A stretch of 64,000 nucleotides of DNA from Fulvia fulva. Its lineage: Eukaryota; Ascomycota; Dothideomycetes; Mycosphaerellales; Mycosphaerellaceae. The stretch lies in contig NC_063014.1 of the NCBI RefSeq assembly GCF_020509005.1, positions 4,898,001 through 4,962,000 of the forward strand, in the 5' to 3' direction. Of this stretch, positions 3,969 to 14,288 are shown piece after piece. The notes under the pieces were generated by a model that was not told where the DNA came from, made no database searches, and saw only the letters and a list, made by a program, of their open reading frames with translations. A program made the position numbers and the translations under genes. Each line of letters begins with the position of its first letter. Within the stretch, counting starts at the first letter, position 1.

Positions 3969-6524
3969 ATGACCACAATGACCGAAGTCTGTAGCATCAA
4001 GAACAGCTGCCATGATGGGAAGGCTCTCCTGGAGTGCACGTTGCGGGATGTCTTCCTGGAGACGGCTGCAAGATTTCCAGATCAGACAGCTATTTTCGAT
4101 GACAACTGCCAGAGGAGCATCAGCTATAGCAAGGCCAATGGCTTGGCCACGTCTGTTGCAGCGTCTTTGCAGACAATTGGAGTAACGAAAGGAGACCGCG
4201 TTGCAACCAGTCTTGGCAACAGTCTTGAAGGATACCTGGTGAGTCTTTGTCTGTCTGTAAAAGAGCGAGCATTCAGGCTAACGTAGTCGTTGAAGTCCAT
4301 CTTGGCCTGCTACAATATTGGAGCTATTGCCGTTCCTCTTAATCCAGCATACAAGCTGGCGCAGGTCGTCGGTGCTCTGAACCATGTTAGTGCCAAGTGT
4401 CTCATCATTTCCCTCGATGCACGACTGGCATATGATCGATCGGAGTCGAACACCCCTCTGTTGCAAGAACTGGCGAAAGACGACGTGGTGCCCGGCCTAG
4501 ACCATATCATCGTGGTAGACAATGCAGGCGGCAGGACTGATGAGATCGTCCCGACGGAGAACTTCACGCCGTGGGACGATTTGATCGCTGGTGACAATAC
4601 CCTTCAGGAGACTCATGTTGGTCCAGGGGACGTCGCGCTCATTCAATTCACCTCAGGAACGACAACGGCTCCGAAAGGCGCATGTCTCACGCATCGTAAC
4701 ATCGTCAACTCTGCCTTGATCATGGGCGAGCGCCTGAGATACACCCACCGCGATGTGATATGCTGTCCTTTGCCACTCTTTCACGTATCTGGGACCATTC
4801 TCGGAATGGCAATTTCTTTGTGCTTTGGCGCGACTCTGGTATTCCCTGCTGAAGCATTCAGTCCTGAGGCGACCGTACTAGCGCTTCGTACGTTGGAGGC
4901 CTCGTCGTTGTACGCTGTGCCGACGATGTTCATCACAATGCTGGACTATGTTCGAGAGCATAAGATCAAGAACGAGGACTTCCAATCCTTGCGAACCGGG
5001 ATCATCAGTGGTTCTCCAGTCCACGCTGCACTATTGAGGCGGATACAAGATGTGTTTTCCCTGCCTGAGCTCGTGGTAGCATGGGGTATGAGCGAGACAA
5101 CTGGAGCAGCTACGATGTCACACCCGACCGAAGATAGCGTCTTGCAACGGACGTCGACCGCAGGAAGGCCCTTGGCGCATACGCACGTAAGAGTCGTAGC
5201 GCGAGATGATCCGTTTCGTGAACTTCCTGCTGGTGACCGCGGTGAGCTGGTTGTGTCCGGATACCTGTTGATGCAAGGCTATTGGGCAGATGTGGCCAAG
5301 ACCAACGATATCATGGTCCGCGACCCATCCACCGGGGTGATCTGGCTGCGGACTGGTGACGAGGGCCAGCAAGATGTCAATGGATACGTGACCGTGACTG
5401 GACGTATCAAGGATGTCATCATTCGTGGAGGTGAGAACATCCATCCTGCAGAGATTGAGAGCCTGTTGATCGAGCACCCTCTTGTTCAGGATGCTAGTGT
5501 GATCGGGATACCGGACCCATTCTACGGCGAGGTCGTTGGCGCATTTGTCGTCCTGGCGAGTGATGCTGAGCAAGCTAGTCATAAAGCTATTCGACTCTGG
5601 CTGGCTACCAAACTCGGCCGCACATGGTTGCCGAAAGAAGTCTTCTTCGTGACAGACCTCCCGAAGACACCATCTGGCAAGATCCAGAAGTTCGAGCTCC
5701 GCGAGAAGGCCACTCAATTATTGGCCGACAAGGCCAAGTGGAGCTACGCGGCGGATGCCTACAGCGAGGGCATCCAAAAGGCCTCATCCCGAGTTGCCGC
5801 TCATTTGATCGAGATGGTCAATCGTTCGCAACCGATTACAGAGATTTCTCGGGTTGTTGACGTTGGGGCAGGCACTGGAGCGGCGACAGCAGTCCTCGCA
5901 GAGACGACTGCAGCCGGACGCATCGTCGCAACAGATATTGCACCTCTCATGCTGGATAAGATCGTTTTGTCAAGCACATCCCTGACCAGTAAAAGAGTCG
6001 AGAAGCGTGTCGTGGACGTCTTCGCTCTCTCAAAAGTCTTTCCTCGCCATATCTTCACTCATACCGTCTCGAATATGCTTTTGCACATCTTAGACGATCC
6101 ATTACTAGCAGTCAAGGAGATGGCAGCCGTGACTCGCTCTGGTGGTGCTCTCGCGCTCGCTATCACGGGTACACCTGTGTTTCCATACATCCTTTGGGAA
6201 CGTGCTTGCCGGACCTTGGACGATACATTTCGAGTCTCCGACCCATTTCCAAGCCGATGGTCCAAGCCGCGAGACCTTCAACAAGCATTCGATGCTGTGG
6301 GTGCCGAGAACGTGGTGATCCAAGAGATAAGCGTTGAGTGGCCCTTCCGCGACGGAAGCGAATTCGTCAAGCTGTTTGGCAATGGCAAACATCCCGGCTT
6401 CACGGCCGCTGTTGCAGAATGGAAGGGTTGTCGAGACAGCGCTCTGCAAGCATTAGTCAAGGTCTTCGACGAAGAAGCAGACTTCTGCCTGAAGGCTGTC
6501 ATAGGTGTAGGGCGGTTGCCATAG
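3969..6524 (+). CDS. Acyl-adenylating (ANL) enzyme fused to a SAM-dependent methyltransferase
   Basis: Two exons, 3969-4238 and 4296-6524, give about 832 residues. The 57-nt intron starts GTGAGT, has branch GCTAAC (4278-4283) and uses the AG at 4294-4295; an AG at 4286 would also keep frame and add three residues. ANL core motifs in order: FTSGTTTAPKG (about 208-218), WGMSETTGA (about 352), RTGD (about 441), GRIKDVIIRGGENIHP, and the catalytic-lysine motif PKTPSGKIQK (about 545). After a short linker comes VVDVGAGTGAAT (about 609-620), motif I of class I methyltransferases, then a domain running to the C-terminus. Known: ANL enzymes make acyl-AMP and usually acyl-CoA. There is no carrier-protein domain. 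The fusion suggests that an acid is activated and then methylated, possibly in secondary metabolism, but the substrate is unknown. Confidence 0.88.
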
Positions 6525-12275: not shown

Positions 12276-12281
12276 TATATA
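12276..12281 (+). promoter_or_regulatory. TATATA element upstream of the tRNA-Thr gene
   Basis: TATATA lies about 53 bp before the first tRNA base. Upstream TATA-like boxes help recruit TFIIIB at some fungal tRNA genes. Here it could offset a disrupted internal A box; that role is inference. Confidence 0.4.
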
Positions 12282-12329: not shown

Positions 12330-12342
12330 ATTCGCCCGCTTA

Positions 12343-12404
12343 GTGAGTTCATCACGAGACGAGTCCACTGTCCGAGAAGCTGTCGAAGCTAACAAAAAGT
12401 TCAG
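12343..12404 (+). other. Intron 1 of the tRNA-Thr gene (62 nt)
   Basis: Lies between tRNA positions 9 and 10. The donor is GTGAGT, the branch site GCTAAC (12388-12393) and the acceptor TTCAG, with the branch A 12 nt from the AG. These are textbook signals of the short spliceosomal introns in protein genes of this window and nothing like a bulge-helix-bulge tRNA intron. Confidence 0.8.
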
Positions 12405-12412
12405 GCTCAGAG

Positions 12413-12464
12413 GTATGATTATTCGCTGACAGCTTCAGTGCGCCGCCGACTAACCTAAACACAG
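12413..12464 (+). other. Intron 2 of the tRNA-Thr gene (52 nt)
   Basis: Lies in the D loop between G18 and G19. The donor is GTATGA, the branch site ACTAAC (12449-12454) and the acceptor CACAG, with the branch A 11 nt from the AG. It is separated from intron 1 by an 8-nt exon that supplies the 5' strand of the D stem. Confidence 0.8.
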
Positions 12465-12543
12465 GTAGAGCGCATCACTAGTAATGATGAGGTCATTGGT
12501 TCAATTCCAGTAGCGGGCAACTGCGGTTGCGCCTGGCTTTCTC

Positions 12544-12547
12544 TTTT
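12544..12547 (+). terminator. TTTT Pol III terminator candidate
   Basis: The first run of four T residues on the coding strand after the tRNA lies 25 nt downstream of the discriminator base, a reasonable distance for Pol III termination. Confidence 0.4.
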
Positions 12548-13423
12548 GCCATTGTGCTTGATCTTTTGGTCTGGAAATGCGTTTTGAGGATGTTCGGAGG
12601 TATCGTACGAAGACCAACGACGATGAAAGCGAGCTACGGCGATGGCAAGATGCTGCAAATGGTCTTTTCTTCCTGGTATGAAGCCTTTTTGTGATTTGAC
12701 ATATCCTGGCACAGCATATTTTTGCCACTATCACTACCGCTGGATCTTTACGAACGGCTGACAGAAGCAATACCGCTTCCTGCCTGTTCCCAGGTCCCGC
12801 ATGCCTTGAGACAGGGCCGTCGTGAACGAGGGCGACCATCACACGACAGATCGCCTCGACGACTCCGCGCACAGCACAGCATCTCGTTACCAATCTTGCC
12901 CTCGTGCGGCAGCTGAATGCCATTCGTGCCGTCTGCTTCGATCAACAAGTCATCATTATTCGGCTGTGGCGGGGACAAAACGTCGCACAGCAGCATGATT
13001 CTACCAGGATCTCAAGCCACGCTTTCATTCCTTCCACAGACGAGAACCAATCCGTGTCGATCACAGCTCTTCTACGAATACTGGCTATGCGGTACAAGTA
13101 TCTATCAGCGACGCCTCTCACTACACCCTCAGGACTCAACACTCCATACATATGTACGTCTTTCTCCTCGATGATGCGAGCCGGCAGAGCTCGTCTGCAC
13201 ATCTTGCTGCAAGGTGAGAGCTTCGATTGCTGTGCATTCGTGGCAATATGCAACAAGCTGTCCATGCTGGTGAGGTATGGCATGTGGAGGCAGCTTTCCC
13301 TTCCTTCTGCGGAGCTTCAGAGTTCTTGTAGGATTTTTTCGTCTTTTGTCTGTTGGTGTATCCTCTGCTATTCTCACACACTGCTAGCACCTTGGCAGTC
13401 AATCTACGCAAAGGCAGTCAGAA
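12548..13423. other. Intergenic stretch between tRNA-Thr and the aquaporin gene
   Basis: Several overlapping open frames occur on both strands, but none has recognisable motifs. The 307-residue frame from 12904 runs out of frame through the aquaporin exon and is a shadow. The last 150 bp probably hold the aquaporin promoter and leader. Confidence 0.5.
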
Positions 13424-14288
13424 ATGGGCCCTCCAAGGTTCGATCAACCCTTCGCAGGCTATGCTCAACCTCGAGATCCAGGATCCCAAAATGCAGCACG
13501 AAACCACTTCATCGCAGCAACGGGGGAGTTTGTTGGCACATTCATGTTCCTCCTCTTCGCCTTCCTGGGCCACACGATGGCAGTAGACCAGGCACCGGAC
13601 ACTGCACCAAATGGAGCCAACAGCAGCATGACCGTGATCTACATTGCAATGGCCTACGGCTTCTCACTTCTCGTCACCGCATGGACAATGTTCAGAGTCA
13701 GCGGTGGTCTTTTCAATCCTGCTGTAACGATTGGCCTCAGTCTGTCTGGACAATTGCCTTGGACACGAGCTTTGATTTTCTTGCCGACACAGCTTTTGGC
13801 AGCAATCTGTGCGGCGGCGGTATGTAGTGGCATCATACCTGGGGACATCGCGACAGTACAGACGACATTAGCATCTAATGTCGGCATTGCCCAAGGGTTG
13901 TTCTTGGAGATGTTCCTTACCGCCGAGCTCACTTCACGGTTCTCATACTGGCTGCTGAGAAGCACAAGAGCACATATATCGCACCTGTCGGAATAGGTCT
14001 CGCGCTGTTCGTAGCTGAGATCGCTGGAGTCTACTACACTGGAGGTGCGCTAAATCCAGCCCGTTCCTTTGGCCCTTGTGTCGCCGGAGCATCTTTCCAA
14101 GAACATCACTGGAGTACGTATCCAAATAAGAACGATTGGAGCCCATCGACTGACACAACCTAGTATACTGGGTCGGCCCATATCTCGGAGCCATGATCGC
14201 CGCCGGATATTACCACTTCGTCAAATTCTTCAACTACGAAGAAGCGAACCCTGGCCAAGACAGTGCCGACGGTAAGCACATCGATTAG
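13424..14288 (+). pseudogene. Aquaporin (MIP family) with an internal 1-nt frame break
   Basis: The N-terminal part reads RNHFIAATGEFVGTFMFLLFAF, followed by membrane segments and the first pore motif GLFNPAVT (NPA codons about 13714-13722). Homology continues as far as EMFLTAEL (through 13930), where the frame runs into a stop. One frame over, the protein resumes at 13933 with FTVLILAAEKHK and the second pore motif GGALNPARSFGP (NPA at 14053-14061). Only two bases (13931-13932) stand where one codon is expected, so one base is missing. A 50-nt intron (14114-14163, GTACGT...CCTAG) then joins EHHW to IYWVGPYLGA, ending at TAG 14288. Known: MIP channels conduct water or glycerol. Either the gene is broken or the assembly lost a base; the rest is well preserved. 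Confidence 0.82.

Follow-up and report, generated by a model that had tools for sequence, protein, structure and literature searches.

Candidate spliceosomal introns in a nuclear tRNA-Thr(AGU) gene and in other tRNA genes of Cladosporium (Fulvia) fulvum

The splicing of tRNAs and the splicing of mRNAs are treated as separate systems. A short locus (12334-12519) within the window, the analyzed 64,000-nt stretch of DNA from C. fulvum, the tomato leaf-mould fungus, raises the question of whether a tRNA gene can carry introns of the mRNA type. The best explanation, to which we give a probability of roughly 0.87 on the basis of sequence, is that the locus is a functional nuclear gene for tRNA-Thr(AGU), that the Pol III precursor made from it would lose two U2-type introns to the spliceosome, and that it is one of many such genes in C. 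fulvum. If true, the separation of the two splicing systems would be broken, and the spliceosome, which is not known to take part in tRNA production, would be needed to build the translation machinery. Several matters would also become testable, including the action of the spliceosome on short Pol III transcripts, the joining of 8- and 9-nt exons, the response of Pol III factors to split internal promoters and the entry of introns outside the reach of Pol II. A literature search of open-licence PubMed Central (outside which subscription journals and preprints mostly lie) found no report of tRNA genes with spliceosomal introns, and the main text of PMC9453070, which describes the Race 5 genome, contains no word that starts with tRNA.

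The organization of the locus is summarized in Table 1. The intron coordinates proposed in an earlier sequence-only reading proved exact: excision of both introns yields a 72-nt tRNA-Thr(AGU), recognized by ARAGORN as Thr(agt) (CCA added). The joined exons (GCCCGCT-TA-GCTC-AGAGGTA-GAGC-G-CATCA-CTAGTAA-TGATG-AGGTC-ATTGG-TTCAATT-CCAGT-AGCGGGC-A) form a complete cloverleaf with the conserved bases and the anticodon AGU, and all four stems are fully paired, as had been claimed, with a G-U pair within the T stem. In the default ARAGORN scan, neither the unspliced stretch nor the forms from which a single intron had been removed gave a call; when anticodon introns were allowed, one of the single-intron-removed forms produced a spurious Val reading. 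ARAGORN detected no tRNA over the whole 64,000-nt window, and the Rfam tRNA model matched only positions 12445-12519 (35.5 bits), a match whose start falls inside intron 2.

Table 1. Coordinates and properties of features at the tRNA-Thr(AGU) locus (window numbering).
Feature	Position	Strand	Description	Basis
TATATA box	12276..12281	+	53-58 nt upstream of tRNA 5' end	read in sequence
Exon 1	12334..12342	+	9 nt; acceptor 5' strand and positions 8-9	ARAGORN on spliced tRNA
Intron 1	12343..12404	+	62 nt; position 9/10; donor GTGAGT; branch site GCTAAC (12388-12393), branch A 12392, 12 nt from intron end; 3' end CAG	splice motifs, ARAGORN, motif-free scan
Exon 2	12405..12412	+	8 nt; D stem 5' strand and first part of D loop	ARAGORN on spliced tRNA
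Intron 2	12413..12464	+	52 nt; between D-loop bases 4 and 5 (G18/G19); donor GTATGA; branch site ACTAAC (12449-12454), branch A 12453, 11 nt from intron end; 3' end CAG	
Exon 3	12465..12519	+	55 nt; remaining D arm, T arm, acceptor 3' strand	
Anticodon AGT	12480-12482	+	exon 3	
B box	12498-12508	+	GGTTCAATTCC; T arm, exon 3	
Discriminator A	12519	+	exon 3	
T4 run	12544..12547	+	candidate Pol III terminator, 25-28 nt downstream of tRNA 3' end	
Additional T4 runs	12564-12567; 12582-12585	+	downstream of the tRNA	

In both introns, a donor of the spliceosomal type, CTAAC as the branch site and CAG at the 3' end can be read directly in the sequence. Their boundaries were also sought from structure alone. 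For intron 1, a motif-free scan of 2454 intervals, with intron 2 removed beforehand, returned three equal placements one base apart, the middle one of which is GTGAGT...CAG. Intron 2 lies within the D loop, where many boundaries are structurally equal, so that the GT-AG assignment there rests on the motif. The presence of spliceosomal-type introns outside position 37/38 in this tRNA gene is supported.

The sequence-only reading had also likened the branch spacing of 11-12 nt to that of mRNA introns in the window. This holds for the intron of a phosphoglucose isomerase gene (18275-18225, minus strand, 51 nt), which contains GTGAGT, GCTAAC and CAG with the branch A 11 nt from its end, while the GTGAGT...GCTAAC intron of an AMP-binding gene near 4239 has an ambiguous 3' end; the comparison therefore comprises two introns, one firm and one ambiguous. 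Motif-only counting of mRNA-like introns across the window was uninformative. An aquaporin-like (MIP) gene in the window (13424-14100, + strand) shifts frame midway with no obvious intron, and is possibly a pseudogene or the result of a sequence error.

The genome of C. fulvum Race 5 (67,169,167 bases in 14 contigs) was searched for related genes; paralogs inside this genome, in place of other fungal species, formed the basis of comparison. With the spliced window tRNA as query, three Thr(AGU) places were detected genome-wide at E <= 10, and no uninterrupted Thr(AGU) gene was found among them. All three genes contain GT-AG introns in or beside the D arm. The gene on contig 7 (L010) encodes a mature tRNA identical to that of the window gene and has the same exon 1 sequence, but is uncut at 9/10; its sole intron occupies the same D-loop position as intron 2 of the window gene, and the two are unrelated in sequence. 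The gene on contig 13 (L011) specifies a second Thr(AGU) tRNA, with an intron after D-loop base 1. Between the window gene and L010, the introns share 52-56% identity and the flanks 52-58%, values near the baseline for shuffled introns (mean 49%, maximum 60%).

The survey was then based on the B-box pattern GGTTCRANYCC, which occurs at 182 genome places, fewer than its reversed control (229); the GGTTCGANYCC class accounts for 89 places versus 153 for its control. Coverage extended to 88 of the 89 GGTTCGANYCC places (the one left out is on contig 9, 3828709) and 18 of the 93 GGTTCAANYCC places, i.e., one class was surveyed nearly completely. With identical copies counted once, the set came to 102 distinct places (84 GA and 18 AA). 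Another B-box pattern, TGTTCGANYCA, was present at 189 places versus 495 for the control, and twelve fungal tRNA queries gave no match, an outcome that is uninformative. A splice-aware finder allowed up to four introns (GT or GCAAG donor, branch-like site and AG) together with one canonical intron; introns could be 42-110 nt long, lengths beyond the 45-70 range incurring a small penalty, and the branch spacing could be about 5-23 nt. Scores of at least 22 were obtained at 38 of the 102 places, from which L072 (unresolved) and L085, L090 and L094 (poor tRNAs) were dropped, leaving 34 curated genes; eleven places scoring below 22 were left out of the counts. The boundaries of L015, L019 and L088, which the finder had mis-split, were set by hand from sequence and paralogs, and an automated re-run of L088 departed from the hand reading in giving the gene a long variable loop and a canonical intron that is short.

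Of the 34 curated genes, 27 carry a total of 48 spliceosomal-type introns and represent 15 anticodons and 11 amino acids. Ten genes have one such intron, 13 have two and four have three; within the GA class, such interruptions occur in 24 of the 30 curated genes. The intron-bearing genes are Thr(AGU) (three genes), Thr(CGU), Gly(GCC) (four), Glu(CUC) (two), Ser(AGA), Ser(CGA), Asp(GUC) (four), Gln(CUG) (two), Gln(UUG), Pro(CGG), Val(CAC), Tyr(GUA) (two), Leu(AAG) (two), Leu(CAA) and Lys(CUU). The seven genes that lack such introns comprise three Ala(AGC) genes, Ala(CGC), one Gly(GCC) gene (L043), Gly(UCC) and an Ile(GAU)-like gene. Insertion positions fall under 28 labels, from 8/9 through 67/68. 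The proposal of spliceosomal-type introns in a tRNA gene, made for the window locus only, is thereby extended to the two further Thr(AGU) genes and to 24 curated tRNA genes with other anticodons. The Rfam tRNA model matched at least 22 places at E <= 0.001 in 67 Mb, all above the cut-off, a lower bound for which 63 of 1234 candidates were scored. In genomes of this kind, a large part of the tRNA complement may escape standard tRNA finders.

Several of the remaining places merit brief mention. One tRNA-like sequence (Rfam, 41.9 bits over 115 nt) recurs at six places on contigs 1, 2, 5, 9, 12 and 4 (L033/L046, L047-L051), and is possibly a multi-copy tRNA or a tRNA-derived repeat. L090 (contig 6, 953666) and L094 (contig 8, 40497) are near-identical tRNA-like stretches with poor acceptor pairing, and are possibly part of a repeat. 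L059, L060 and L061 gave weak Rfam matches (19.9-20.5 bits) and look by eye like the 5' parts of more interrupted Lys, Thr(UGU) and elongator Met genes.

All 48 introns are GT-AG and 49-62 nt long, the terminal dinucleotides being partly imposed, since the finder demands a GT (or GCAAG) donor and an AG. G occupies position +5 in 46 of them, and CTRAY is present in 46, with the branch A located 10-13 nt from the 3' end in 45 of these; the exceptions at the branch site are L018 and L108 (no CTRAY) and L066. Boundaries within loops were set by motif alone. The introns themselves look ordinary, and the novelty appears to lie in their location in tRNA genes.

The concern over imposed dinucleotides is answered, only in part, by decoy and motif-free controls. 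At a raw score of at least 28, the real motifs restored tRNAs at 20 of the 102 places, compared with 0-2 for nine decoy motif sets. At net scores of at least 22, 24 and 26, the real motifs were successful at 23, 21 and 15 places, respectively, the decoys at 1-5, 0-2 and 0-2, and five shuffles of all 102 places (510 tries) at 2, 1 and 0. The motif-free scan tried, at every place, the removal of one interval of 44-65 nt at a time. For the ten genes with a single intron, it yielded one best interval, with GT-AG ends, in five cases (L012, L018, L057, L063 and L103); GT-AG was one of two best intervals in L116 and one of four in L106, and in L010 and L011, whose introns lie in the D loop, it shared the top score with other intervals (40 and 27 equal solutions, respectively). 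In all, GT-AG was among the best solutions in nine of the ten, L092 being the exception. The same scan gave scores of 27-30.4 for intervals other than GT-AG in L016, L025, L090 and L094 (places dropped or lacking an accepted model) and 30.2 with mixed dinucleotides in L085, and several intron-free genes scored at or above their unspliced value, such that the scan is not specific by itself. Together, the decoy motifs and the motif-free scan argue against a chance origin of the intron pattern. ARAGORN was applied to the 24 genes that the finder had solved without hand-setting: the expected anticodon was obtained for 24 of 24 mature forms, for 23 of 24 in which the canonical intron was kept and for two of 24 unspliced forms. 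The latter two are L057 and L092; the program fails on spliced L057 if the canonical intron remains.

The identity of the polymerase is central to any explanation, and transcription of the tRNA by Pol II had been suggested earlier. According to this alternative, Pol II would produce longer RNAs that undergo mRNA-like splicing, after which the tRNA is cut out. Such a route would account for the presence of splicing, which is normally coupled to Pol II, and for the disrupted internal promoters: the A-box region of the window gene is cut by both introns, as had been noted (with the B box intact and a T4 run present), and introns of other genes at 50/51 to 52/53 and 62/63 to 64/65 lie in the T stem, at 50-53 and 62-65, where the B box is formed. 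The flanking signals nevertheless point the other way. A run of at least four T residues occurs within 80 nt downstream of 33 of the 34 curated genes (all but L108) versus 17% of 1044 random sites. The upstream signal is less general: the 60 nt before the gene include a TATA-like box in only 18 of the 34, versus 5.7% of 1044 random sites. The terminators favor Pol III over Pol II, and the earlier suggestion of Pol II transcription is not supported, both signals being those expected of Pol III. U6 is a Pol III transcript. Its spliceosomal introns, described in PMC5832005, provide a precedent. We regard the Pol II route as unlikely. In C. fulvum, U6 was found at one place, as a full-length match with no large insert. 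The terminator downstream of many curated genes is often CTTTTTGC or similar, which hints at a preference for G-C following the T run.

The preferred reading, i.e., Pol III transcription followed by spliceosomal excision, would proceed as follows. The Pol III precursor of the window gene would end in a T run, and U1 and U2 snRNPs would bind across the 49-62-nt introns; the spliced product would then fold as a tRNA and be trimmed. In most of the other genes, the intron at 37/38 would be taken out by the tRNA endonuclease, and one small RNA would hence need two unrelated splicing machines. Splitting of the A box in the window gene and of the T stem in others would imply either that TFIIIC binding is altered or that the TATA box does more. 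Beyond Pol III transcription and removal of the introns by the spliceosome, we infer that the product is charged and used in translation. On a broader scale, the spliceosome is probably required for the C. fulvum tRNA set: the Pol III precursors of tRNAs for 11 or more amino acids would contain between one and three spliceosomal introns, in most cases alongside an endonuclease intron, translation capacity would be coupled to splicing, and Pol III would be aimed differently, perhaps via an upstream TATA box.

It is very unlikely that the inserts are instead removed by the tRNA splicing endonuclease, like the non-canonical tRNA introns known from Cyanidioschyzon, nucleomorphs and crenarchaea. 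Introns at many tRNA positions, including the D and T arms, and several per gene are described for these groups in PMC4090602, where the non-canonical eukaryotic cases are those of nucleomorphs and Cyanidioschyzon, and cutting of the Cyanidioschyzon and archaeal introns is assigned to the endonuclease. Endonuclease-domain genes are also present in C. fulvum, in which PF01974, the endonuclease catalytic domain, was detected at two genome places, and a canonical 37/38 intron coexists in 24 of the 27 intron-bearing genes. Against this, the inserts share a donor, a branch site, a 3' end, a length of 49-62 nt and a fixed branch spacing, none of which is read by the endonuclease, whereas the canonical introns of the same genes span 8 to 65 nt; the additional introns differ from the latter in position, shared splice motifs and uniform length. 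Nucleomorph introns, at 3-24 nt (PMC4090602), are likewise unlike the 49-62-nt introns with spliceosomal motifs reported here. An assignment of the window introns to the 37/38 endonuclease type was rejected: as originally stated, they lie at 9/10 and in the D loop, and the anticodon arm is uninterrupted.

The closest parallels for introns of this kind in small structured RNAs are those of fungal U3 snoRNA and U6 snRNA, which have GT-AG introns and RCTRAC-like branch sites; according to PMC5832005, no other small structured RNAs are known to contain an intron frequently. In that account, one or two introns occur in one gene family (the U3 introns averaging 92 nt), and some genomes have copies both with and without introns. 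The C. fulvum introns differ in being located in tRNA genes for 11 amino acids, at up to three per gene and often beside an endonuclease intron.

The suggestion that the interrupted genes are decaying or silent copies, with intact genes elsewhere supplying the tRNAs, is the least probable of the alternatives and can largely be set aside: D- and T-arm insertions in eukaryotic tRNA genes are usually read as pseudogenes (PMC4090602) and one Gly(GCC) copy (L043) indeed lacks a spliceosomal-type intron, but the stems remain paired across the separated exons, no uninterrupted Thr(AGU) gene was encountered, and paralogs have the same or nearly the same mature tRNA while their introns differ (three of four Gly genes, two of two Gln genes, Asp L037/L119 and two Thr genes). 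The mature tRNAs of Gly(GCC) genes L018, L063 and L103 are identical to that of intron-free L043, and that of L012 is one base off; Gln genes L064 and L095 are likewise identical in their mature tRNAs, as are Asp genes L037 and L119. Intron identity between such Gly, Gln and Asp paralogs ranges from 49% to 85%. When 15 spliced tRNAs (representing 12 of the 15 anticodons) were used as queries, 17 matches were obtained, of which only that at Gly(GCC) L043 was full-length, the rest being pieces. This search excluded Leu(CAA) and Lys(CUU), Thr(AGU) having been searched separately; short pieces are poorly detected, so that it argues against intact copies and provides no full list of interrupted ones.

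Spliceosomal introns are also found in ascomycete nuclear rDNA, which likewise gives rise to a non-mRNA transcript, but these reside in ribosomal RNA rather than in tRNA. In F. fulva itself, introner-like elements are spliceosomal introns that have spread by multiplication (PMC4457414). The 48 tRNA introns, compared among themselves only, are not near-identical copies. An all-against-all BLAST comparison of them produced five matching pairs, all between paralogs or the two Ser genes, and recent introner copies were rejected as a source because no single sequence family is apparent among them. An old introner origin may nonetheless apply. The shared positions of the Gly (62/63) and Asp (27/28) introns, together with their diverged sequences, suggest that these introns are old, and gain, loss or sliding is suggested by differences in the number or location of introns between paralogs of Thr and of Asp. 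Among the Asp(GUC) genes, L019, L037 and L119 have the 27/28 intron in common and differ at 10/11, 11/12, 51/52 or the variable loop, while L057 carries a single intron at 49/50, a pattern as if the introns had slid or been gained separately.
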